A stretch of DNA of 64,000 nt from Psychroflexus tropicus DSM 15496 (GTDB taxonomy: Bacteria; Bacteroidota; Bacteroidia; Flavobacteriales; Flavobacteriaceae): positions 1 to 64,000 of the forward strand of contig NZ_KB905346.1 in the NCBI RefSeq assembly GCF_000378765.1. Direction: 5' to 3'. How positions within the stretch are numbered: the stretch's first letter is position 1; each line of letters starts with the position of its first letter. The translations under genes were made by a program, and so were the position numbers. The notes under the pieces are model-generated. The model was not told where the DNA came from, made no database searches, and saw only the letters and a program-made list of their open reading frames with translations. This document shows, one piece after another, positions 33,983 to 35,969 of this stretch.

Positions 33983-34708
33983 TTAAACTTGAGAAGGTTC
34001 TTTAGACCAAACCTCAGATAGTTCTTTTAAAGATTCAAAAAGTATATCAAAAGAGGAGATAACGTAATAGTCTTCTTGCATGATATCGGTTCTAAAAACC
34101 TTTTGGATAATTTCATCAATAGAATACGTCAGAAAATTAGCTTTTTGTTGATGGATTTGGTTAGTTTCACCGAAGGAGGATAGGATACCAGCACCATAGG
34201 ACTGAATTTTATCCTCTTCTTTAATGACTCCAAACTCGATGGTAAACCAGTAAAGGCGTTGAAGCTGAAGTAATTTATCTTTATCATCTATGAATTGACA
34301 ACCCAACTTGCCAAATTTATATACAAATTCAGAAAAGACAGGATTACTGAGTAATGGAACATGACCAAATATATCGTGAAACATATCGGGTTCTTCCAAA
34401 TAATCCAGGCTATCTTTAGAACGTAACCAGGTAGACGAACAAAACTTTCTTTCGGCTAAGAGTTGAAAAAATTCCTCGACTGGAATAAGGCCTGGAACAA
34501 CTTTCAATTCCCATTTGGTTTCTGTTTCGAACCAACGGTTTATGTGTACAAAACAAGGAATCTCATCAGCGTTCAATACAGGAGACATGTGATTTAAAGC
34601 ATCGATATAAGCTTGGGACGCTTTGCCAGGAATATTTTCGACTTGGCGATCAAATAAGGTTTTCCACACCCATAAATCTTCTTTAGTGTATTTAGACATG
34701 TCTTGCAT
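33983..34708 (-). CDS. phhA: phenylalanine 4-hydroxylase
   Basis: 241 residues, a non-haem iron, tetrahydropterin-dependent aromatic amino acid hydroxylase that converts Phe to Tyr. The 2-His-1-Glu iron site is visible: 'PDMFHDIFGHVPLL' with H111 and H116, and 'WFTIEFGVIKEE' with E158. Length fits the bacterial single-domain type without the regulatory domain. Its 5' leader holds a Tyr-codon leader peptide and a terminator (separate entries), so expression should rise when Tyr-tRNA is scarce. MSKYTKE, 9 bp downstream, is an alternative start. Confidence 0.93.
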   Translation of the reverse strand: MQDMSKYTKEDLWVWKTLFDRQVENIPGKASQAYIDALNHMSPVLNADEIPCFVHINRWFETETKWELKVVPGLIPVEEFFQLLAERKFCSSTWLRSKDSLDYLEEPDMFHDIFGHVPLLSNPVFSEFVYKFGKLGCQFIDDKDKLLQLQRLYWFTIEFGVIKEEDKIQSYGAGILSSFGETNQIHQQKANFLTYSIDEIIQKVFRTDIMQEDYYVISSFDILFESLKELSEVWSKEPSQV

Positions 34709-34723
34709 TAGCTTGTTTTTTAA

Positions 34724-34756
34724 ATAAAAATCCCGATTCGTAATGGAATCGGGATT
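34724..34756 (-). terminator. attenuator terminator in the phhA leader
   Basis: On the minus strand: a perfect 11-bp stem AATCCCGATTC (34756-34746) / GAATCGGGATT (34739-34729) with loop CATTAC, followed by a T-rich run. It lies upstream of phhA, not after a gene, which marks it as a leader terminator. Its 5' arm can pair instead with GAATCGG at 34795-34789 in the leader-peptide coding region (CCGATTC, 34752-34746, 7 bp), forming an antiterminator. Confidence 0.88.
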
Positions 34757-34784
34757 GATTTGGATTTATTAAATGATTTCACCA

Positions 34785-34844
34785 TTAACCGATTCTTGAT
34801 CTAAGAATTGAATAATAGTAATAATAAGTTTCTTTTAATATCAT
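34785..34844 (-). CDS. tyrosine-rich leader peptide of the phhA attenuator
   Basis: The 19-codon ORF reads MILKETYYYYYSILRSRIG, with five consecutive Tyr codons (TAT TAT TAC TAT TAT, 34826-34812) and a TAA stop at 34787-34785. It begins 4 nt after the -7 box, so the transcript is probably leaderless. Right after the Tyr codons comes segment 1 (ATTCTT, 34808-34803), which pairs with segment 2 (AAGAAT, 34797-34792); segment 2 can instead pair with the 5' arm of the terminator. This is the classic 1:2, 2:3, 3:4 layout of amino acid attenuators. A second ATG 4 nt upstream opens a Leu-rich reading frame, but would lie at or before the likely transcript start. Confidence 0.8.
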   Translation of the reverse strand: MILKETYYYYYSILRSRIG

Positions 34845-34848
34845 GCAT

Positions 34849-34879
34849 CAAAGTTAGCTAATATTGGAATGTATGCAAA
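34849..34879 (-). promoter_or_regulatory. phhA promoter
   Basis: TTTG (34879-34876), 19 bp, TAACTTTG (34856-34849) on the minus strand, a full match to the Bacteroidota sigma consensus. Transcription should begin near 34845, directly at the leader-peptide ATG. Confidence 0.85.
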
Positions 34880-34971: not shown

Positions 34972-35969
34972 ATGGCAAACAGAAAATACCGTTGGGGAAT
35001 CGTAGGGCTTGGAAATATAGCCCAGAAATTGGCCTCTGATTTAAAAAGTGTAAAGGGGGCAACCTTTATGCTGTGGCTTCCAGATCTGAAGCAAAAGCCA
35101 GGGCATTTGCAAAAGACAATGACGCTCATGTGTATTATGATTCTTACCAGGCTTTAGCAAAAGACCCTAAGGTGGACATCGTCTACGTTGCTACACCTCA
35201 CGTTTTTCATGCGGAACATACGCTCTTGTGTCTCAAGCAAAACAAAGCAGTATTATGCGAAAAACCAATAGCGATGAATGTTTTCCAATTCAAAACAATG
35301 CAGGAAGCAGCAAAGTCGAATAATTGCTTTTTAATGGAAGGGCTTTGGACCAATTTCATGCCGCATCTCCAAAAGGTCCATGAGTTAATTCAACAAAACA
35401 CTTATGGTCACTGTTTAAAAATGGAAGCTGACTTTTCTTTTAAAGCCGAGTTTGATCCTTACAAAAGGCTTTTTAATAAAAACTTGGGGGGTGGAGCTTT
35501 ACTGGATATTGGAATTTATCCGGTTTACCTGGCGCTTAAGCTGTTAGGCTTGCCTCAAGATATAGAGGCTTCTTGTGAATACTCTTCTACTGGTGTAGAT
35601 GCCTCCAATCAGATTGAGTTCAAGTATGCCAATGGTGCTTCGGCACAGTTATCTTCAAGTTTCTTAAAGACTACAGCATCACAAGCAAAAGTCTATTTTG
35701 AGGAAGCTGTAGTAGAATTCGGATCTAGATTTCATGAAACCGATAAGTTCACTATCAAAACTGATACAGGCACACAATCCTTCGATTATAACTATCCTGC
35801 TAACGGTTACCAATTTGAAATCGAACATGTCCATAGGTGCTTACATAGAGGTTTAGTCCAAAGTCCAGAGATGTCTTTAGAGGCATCTTACCAATTGATT
35901 TCAACTCTTGATGAAATAAGACATAAAATGGGCCTGCAGTATAAAGAAGATAAACCATATAAAGAGTAA
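34972..35969 (+). pseudogene. Gfo/Idh/MocA family oxidoreductase, frameshifted
   Basis: Two overlapping frames make one NAD(P)-dependent oxidoreductase. The N-terminal part 'WGIVGLGNIAQKLASDLKS' (Rossmann GxGxxA/G) is in the frame from 34972; the rest, from 'AVASRSEAKARAFA' through 'CEKPIAMN' and 'GGGALLDIGIYPVYL', is in the frame running to 35969. The join is at the five-G run 35055-35059: one more G gives the continuous sequence KGGNLYAVASRS. Intact length would be about 332 residues, normal for the family. Either a real inactivating or phase-variable slip, or a sequencing error. The substrate (sugar or cyclitol) cannot be told. Confidence 0.85.

Follow-up and report, generated by a model that had tools for sequence, protein, structure and literature searches.

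A putative tyrosine-codon transcription attenuator upstream of phhA in Psychroflexus tropicus

The phhA leader locus

The window analysed here is a stretch of 64,000 nucleotides from Psychroflexus tropicus DSM 15496 (Flavobacteriaceae; contig NZ_KB905346.1). The genome is 3.0 Mb in size, 100% complete and has one phhA gene. The gene (33983–34708, minus strand, ATG at 34708) encodes a phenylalanine 4-monooxygenase of 241 amino acids, PhhA, assigned by Pfam and NCBIfam. PhhA matches Pfam Biopterin_H at 142.5 bits; among NCBIfam models, phenylalanine 4-monooxygenase scores best (241.6 bits, slightly below its cut-off of 247). The closest relatives are encoded by Psychroflexus phhA genes (83–86% identity). 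On the other side of the phhA leader the neighbouring gene is divergent. Two overlapping frames are found on the plus strand, at 34972–35157 and 35073–35969. The longer is a Gfo/Idh/MocA oxidoreductase, for which the match begins at position 33 of the NAD-binding model, and the shorter resembles a dinucleotide-binding start. The overlap is probably due to a frameshift or a sequencing error.

The DNA between the divergent gene and phhA contains a set of minus strand elements, described in the earlier note, that we find base for base where they had been placed. A putative promoter was recognised by motif only. It consists of a −33 element, TTTG (34876–34879), read directly 19 nt 5′ of a −7 element, TAACTTTG (34849–34856); the Bacteroidota consensus is TAnnTTTG (given in a section of PMC7366714). 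The leader ORF (34785–34844) begins with ATG at 34844, 4 nt past the −7 element, and has 19 codons (MILKETYYYYYSILRSRIG) followed by TAA (34787–34785). Within the ORF are five consecutive Tyr codons, TAT TAT TAC TAT TAT (34826–34812). Segment 1 (34803–34821) is the 5′ arm of helix 1:2 and contains Tyr codons 3 and 4, parts of codons 2 and 5, and the sequence ATTCTT (34808–34803). The 3′ arm of helix 1:2 is at 34797–34779. Segment 2, AAGAATCGG (34789–34797), includes GAATCGG (34795–34789), which pairs with CCGATTC (34752–34746) of segment 3. Segment 3, AATCCCGATTC (34746–34756), is also the 5′ arm of the terminator, of which segment 4, GAATCGGGATT (34729–34739), is the 3′ arm. The terminator (34756–34729) has 11 bp, 5 of them G-C, and a 6 nt loop. 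It is followed by the T-rich tail TTTATTTA (34721–34728).

The phhA start codon is 20 nt from the terminator, and the equivalent distance is 12–47 nt in most relatives. Hence, there is no space for a second phhA promoter. This bears on the suggestion, made by the earlier note as evidence that would count against attenuation, that phhA transcripts might start downstream of the terminator. Because the upstream gene is divergent, the terminator can act on the leader transcript only. The leader RNA folds with an energy of −28.9 kcal/mol, compared to −16.1 (sd 3.1) for shuffled sequences (z −4.2). When 300 nt upstream of each of the 52 window ORFs of at least 120 amino acids were inspected, phhA alone had both a run of 4 identical residues in 6 codons and a terminator.

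Conservation of the exclusive helices and of the tyrosine codons

For comparison we used 83 phhA upstream regions, made up of the window, 79 of 80 relative loci and L085–L087. A leader alignment was made from 59 distinct leaders. Here, L022 was omitted (identical to L019), as was L042 (insufficient upstream DNA), and L020 was added by hand. Two phhA loci that have a terminator and no run were also excluded. The terminator scan required a T-rich tail with at least 6 T in 8. The aligned sequences stop 8 nt past the terminator, with the phhA start outside, and those of L019 and L028 were trimmed one base early.

In the alignment, 96.6% of cells are paired in the 3:4 terminator helix, and changes on both sides occur at all 10 pairs examined. 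None of 500 shuffles equalled this covariation and slid versions of the helix were much worse. The 11 bp helix of the earlier note was confirmed. It could be argued that the leader acts mainly after transcription, on phhA translation, RNA stability or Rho, and that the 3:4 helix is not an efficient terminator. The T tract in the window is interrupted (TTTATTTA). Furthermore, Bacteroidota are described as lacking Shine-Dalgarno sequences and, if so, RNA structure around the start codon might have an influence. However, the 3:4 stem covaries, contains G+C, is followed by a T-rich tail and is located where a terminator is expected. We therefore regard an action mainly after transcription as improbable, to a high degree, and favour termination ahead of phhA.

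The earlier note had also proposed a 7 bp 2:3 helix, GAATCGG with CCGATTC. The helix is present but, in the window taken singly, the complementarity is not significant (p 0.11); its support is comparative. When the best 2:3 duplex was assessed in each leader singly, p was 0.05 or less for 38 of 59. A contiguous 2:3 helix of at least 7 bp, beginning 8–20 nt past the Tyr run, is found in 46 of 59 leaders, compared to 4.9% of shuffles. With at least 6 bp in an 8–22 nt window the count is 56 of 59, representing 43 distinct sequences. The variants include GAATCGG/CCGATTC, GAACTGAG/CTCGGTTC, GGAAGCCG/CGGTTTCC and GGAGCGG/CTGCTCC. When partners were swapped between leaders, the own partner outranked the median in 54 of 59 cases and came within the best tenth in only 17. 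The mean helix length was 7.5 with own partners and 6.2 when partners were redealt. None of 300 redeals reached the real mean, a figure that is not a probability since the 59 rows are related.

Helix 1:2 was described in the earlier note as 6 bp long. The helix exists but its length was wrong; in the window it has 17 pairs, includes part of the Tyr codons and has an energy of −12.3 kcal/mol, whereas the 6 bp part alone has −1.6. Across the leaders, the 1:2 region (the Tyr run and the next 45 nt) has a folding energy of −10.6 versus −6.35 kcal/mol, and in 56 of 59 cases it is more stable than its shuffles are on average. Because the window helix incorporates the whole of Tyr codons 3 and 4 and some of 2 and 5, a ribosome stalled there would remove it. 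The local remnant is then at most −1.6 kcal/mol, versus about −9.3 to −10.4 for 2:3; the 3:4 helix has −15.4. These computed energies are consistent with attenuator logic. Sequence and comparison show, as the earlier note had proposed, that 1:2, 2:3 and 3:4 are mutually exclusive. The leader stop codon adjoins segment 2 and, for a ribosome of the expected footprint, its position would let the ribosome mask this segment.

To score codon runs, we asked for a short ATG-initiated ORF in which at least 3 of 6 codons specify the same residue. By this rule, Tyr runs are found in 56 of 83 phhA upstream regions, compared to 2.9% of shuffles. With at least 4 in 6 codons, the numbers are 33 of 83 and 0.2%. 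Leu runs (at least 3 in 6) occur in 22 of 83, which is the chance level (21.6% of shuffles), and every other residue in 12 of 83 or fewer. One of the 56 passes, in a Psychroflexus MAG (L006), is considered spurious since the ORF is 208 nt upstream. The rule for Tyr is not satisfied in 27 of the 83 regions. Among these are five loci (L004, L016, L039, L066 and L075) with shorter or GTG-started leaders that were kept in the alignment, and all seven Balneolaceae phhA loci. There is no Tyr run upstream of phhA in L086 or L087. The comparison proposed by the earlier note supports its reading. Most close relatives keep the Tyr run and the alternative stems despite sequence change; the Psychroflexus MAG and the Balneolaceae are among the exceptions.

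A second frame, absent from the earlier note, also passes through the Tyr repeat. This frame opens with ATG at 34848 and encodes MHDIKRNLLLLLFNS, so the leader might instead sense leucine. Wherever TAY codons are repeated, YTA (Leu) codons are necessarily repeated two bases on, and synonymous drift cannot separate the frames; for this reason the 83 phhA upstream regions were compared for frame. Whilst Leu runs are at the shuffle level, the in-frame ATG is found in 58 of 59 distinct leaders for the Tyr frame, 5 for the Leu frame and none for the third frame, although the loci were picked by phhA alone and these leaders were then collected by requiring a Tyr-frame start. Peptides such as MMSTNTYYTYAYFPNRK, MKTNTYCTYSYFQMETN and MNHLHTYYYAAYSNPFGNR retain Tyr while the Leu frame is disrupted. 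Similarly, the interrupted runs YYTYAYF, YCTYSYF and YYAAYS keep Tyr and break up the Leu codons. Since the Leu ATG comes immediately after the −7 box, it probably lies outside the transcript. The target genes, too, make tyrosine. Sensing of leucine is therefore extremely unlikely, and we rejected the Leu frame as the sensing frame in favour of Tyr.

Tyr runs arise in 2.9% of AT-rich shuffled leaders and terminator-like sites are common, so that an ordinary terminator and an AT-rich stretch might by chance precede a phhA gene with its own promoter; this is scarcely credible given that the arrangement recurs in many relatives with regular spacing, that both exclusive helices covary, that the upstream gene is divergent and that 20 nt would not hold a promoter. 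A terminator of the upstream gene is rejected because that gene is divergent.

Some phhA loci are of other kinds. Two records labelled Glaciecola amylolytica (L063) and Actinomyces viscosus (L039) have Flavobacteriales-type phhA with Tyr leaders, and are probably mislabelled or misbinned. At L065 (1–3714), phhA has no Tyr leader and closes a cluster in which we take the preceding genes to be trpB, trpA and DAHP synthase. By eye, the DNA immediately 5′ of phhA in L059 and L067 is similar to that of L065. Leader-like ORFs with mixed His and Tyr codons (MNPTPRTYVHHSYHFLQ and variants) precede phhA in L230, L231 and L232, which are of one family.

Aromatic and other leaders in Bacteroidota

The genome has three aromatic leaders, each matched to its gene. 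In addition to the phhA leader (YYYYY), the leader MFQKINNSWWWSVLRQTS, containing WWW, matches RF01692 (58.3 bits) and precedes an ORF that is presumably trpE. The third leader, MSARFYFYYNFYFAIPAKRG, has 4 Phe and 4 Tyr codons and, with a terminator, precedes a pheA-aminotransferase-tyrA-DAHP synthase operon (L167 6948–6823, minus strand; G000:C1). In this operon TyrA was identified by profile match, and the remaining names are our assumption. The 2:3 helix of this leader has 11 bp and an energy of −15.4 kcal/mol.

We built a covariance model, R1, from the 59 phhA leaders. In this genome the phhA leader scored 89 bits and the runner-up 39.6 bits (L112); R1 found no second Tyr leader of the phhA type here. 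By eye, the R1 matches L112, L113 and L115 look like ordinary terminators and they were rejected. Over 346 genomes of the order, R1 gave 10 matches with E ≤ 0.001. Seven are directly before phhA, several being training sequences. The other three, none of which are in the model, precede the prephenate dehydrogenase gene tyrA. Of the 10 genomes with phhA in this draw, 3 gave no R1 match.

The 30 best tyrA matches in 176 genomes, all from one family (f5), were followed up. At all 30 loci a short ORF with YYY precedes tyrA. The terminator pattern is found at 28, and a similar hairpin can be seen by eye at the other two. The 2:3 helix of the tyrA leaders is weak, being interrupted and, in most, about −7.6 kcal/mol. 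The earlier note had stressed that codon identity and enzyme function agree at phhA. This is borne out by the similar leader at tyrosine-making tyrA in another family, both enzymes being assigned by protein family only.

A mixed model, R2, was run over 345 genomes of the class (E ≤ 0.01) and returned 30 matches. Eleven are Tyr leaders before phhA; nine of these are outside the training set, one in another Psychroflexus. Two are Tyr leaders before tyrA, one outside training. Six, each in a different Bacteroidota genome (L182, L183, L186, L188, L191 and L192), are leaders with His codons and a terminator ahead of hisG; hisG was identified by NCBIfam for the three tested and by eye for the others. 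One, L180, is an Ile-rich leader, MRNTINNIINISIIILLWERDRK, with a terminator before leuA (2-isopropylmalate synthase). No recognised leader was present in 10 of the 30 matches, and the best 9 are all Tyr leaders. Thus, across the R2 leaders, the repeated codon varies with the pathway to which the downstream gene belongs.

A short phhA is found in 51 of the 345 class genomes. In 19 of these 51 a Tyr run is followed by a terminator, compared to 2 of 306 shuffles. The remaining 32 do not satisfy this full rule; three have a Tyr run with no terminator by rule, and in the rest the rule finds none. Most Flavobacteriaceae have a long aromatic amino acid hydroxylase of 590 amino acids, and no comparable leader was found before it. 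Only 1 of 23 such upstream regions reaches 3 Tyr codons, in a GTG-started ORF.

Of 59 phhA leaders, 50 have a TAnnTT[TC]G box 5′ of the leader start, as do 28 of the 30 tyrA leaders. In the 50 phhA leaders, the gap between box and start is 4 nt in 18 and 3–10 nt in 44; if more than one box or start qualified, the gap closest to 5 nt was taken, so that these raw counts favour short gaps. TTG is present at the −33 place (17–22 nt) in 18 of the 50, and five other Psychroflexus leaders have it at the 19 nt spacing seen in the window. In 28 of the 30 tyrA leaders (L136–L165), precisely 4 nt separate the box from the start codon, which is GTG in 26 and ATG in 2. The gap is also 4 nt for the trpE leader of this genome, and 17 and 25 nt for two hisG leaders. 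The box sits in the −7 region, with consensus TAnnTTTG (section of PMC7366714). Hence, the start codon would be expected at, or a few bases from, +1 and we predict a transcript start at or near the leader start codon. According to the same section, 5′ UTRs shorter than 10 nt make up only about 3.7% of the total in Bacteroides thetaiotaomicron. The 4 nt gap here and in 28 of 30 tyrA leaders suggests that translation of the leader may begin at the extreme 5′ end of its RNA. This spacing poses the question of how translation initiates on such leader RNAs.

Proposed mechanism, known systems and physiological role

The features that define a peptide attenuator are found together at phhA: a Tyr-rich short ORF with its own promoter (by motif only), an intervening terminator, an exclusive 2:3 helix and a 1:2 helix over the regulatory codons. 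The controlled enzyme makes the amino acid that would be sensed. Taken together, the comparative sequence tests support the classical logic put forward in the earlier note, and phhA is very probably controlled by a tyrosine-specific, ribosome-mediated transcription attenuator. RNA polymerase would start at, or a few bases before, the leader ATG and a ribosome would trail the polymerase, translating the Tyr-rich leader. With ample Tyr-tRNA, the ribosome would continue to the stop codon, which borders segment 2 on its 3′ side, and cover that segment. The 3:4 terminator would then form and transcription would end before phhA. Conversely, if Tyr-tRNA were short, the ribosome would stall on the Tyr codons and cover segment 1. 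Segment 2 would then be free to pair with segment 3, phhA would be transcribed and more tyrosine would be made from phenylalanine.

Leader-peptide attenuators are textbook regulators for Trp, His, Leu, Ile/Val, Thr and Phe. The pheA and pheST attenuators of enterobacteria work on the same principle for a related aromatic amino acid; they differ in having Phe codons, in belonging to gamma-proteobacteria and in controlling other genes. The Tyr T-box of Firmicutes likewise senses the charging of tRNA-Tyr and controls a terminator, but binds uncharged tRNA directly and has no leader peptide. No Rfam family, T-boxes included, matched the window at its gathering score. In a scan of 20 loci the only match was Bacteroid-trp (RF01692) at the trpE locus (L119), and a permissive search of the phhA leader gave sub-threshold scores only (Trp_leader, 17.6 of 41 bits). 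Bacteroid-trp is likewise a Bacteroidota peptide leader RNA, with 4 nt between −7 box and ATG, and one copy precedes trpE here. However, it has Trp codons and another sequence, and the phhA leader falls below its 49 bit cut-off. Bacteroid-trp is mentioned in portions of PMC2864571 and PMC6414381.

Attenuators have been predicted before tyrA operons, including that of B. thetaiotaomicron (portion of PMC1173090). The putative B. thetaiotaomicron attenuator (pheA>hisHb>aroA-aroQ>tyrA; Table 7 of PMC1173090) is alike in phylum and in preceding an aromatic operon with tyrA, but would control a whole Phe/Tyr operon and not phhA. The Pseudomonas regulator PhhR also controls phhA, but is a sigma-54 activator in a catabolic setting (PMC1173090), whereas here we propose control by the tRNA of the product, in the manner of a biosynthetic gene. 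In a portion of PMC1262725 (2005), T-boxes are listed as the regulators for tyrosine, and attenuators as those for histidine, threonine and phenylalanine. PMC7366714 notes short ORFs resembling leader peptides in long 5′ UTRs of B. thetaiotaomicron. The earlier note knew of no Tyr-peptide attenuator for phhA. Consistent with this, full-text literature searches found no description of a Tyr-codon or phhA attenuator in the portions of text returned; an earlier account of Bacteroidota attenuators is possible (e.g. Lopatovskaya 2010, Mol Biol 44:128, cited in PMC4833913). By every sequence test available, the phhA leader would represent a new family of the textbook attenuator kind, conserved and tyrosine-specific, in which the logic of the target is unusual and the 5′ end may be so too.

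We are evenly balanced on a broader proposal. This is that a tyrosine-specific attenuator class is widespread in Bacteroidota and sits on whichever enzyme supplies tyrosine, phhA or tyrA by lineage. PhhA would thus be run as a biosynthetic enzyme. The leader peptide would be made from a leaderless or near-leaderless RNA, starting about 4 nt past the −7 box, with the ribosome loading on the emerging 5′ end.

PhhA is usually described as a catabolic enzyme. Attenuation at Tyr codons predicts that phhA is made when tyrosine is short. We infer, arguing from this predicted regulation, that the main selected role of phhA here is tyrosine supply. An enzyme predicted to be switched by shortage of its product bears on whether PhhA serves to make tyrosine or to destroy phenylalanine, and the element could be used to report Tyr-tRNA charging in Bacteroidota. 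The idea that genomes with a phhA leader lack tyrA holds only in part. Among the 10 genomes with phhA that were drawn from the order, 7 gave no TyrA match (E ≤ 1e-5), two of the seven being less than 70% complete, and the three Psychroflexus of the draw, this genome included, have TyrA. The idea that such genomes lack tyrosine breakdown was rejected, as the tyrosine-breakdown enzyme HPPD was matched in 16 of 16 tested, 15 over the cut-off. P. tropicus has both HPPD and a PhhB-type dehydratase, so PhhA may also serve in phenylalanine breakdown via tyrosine in this organism.
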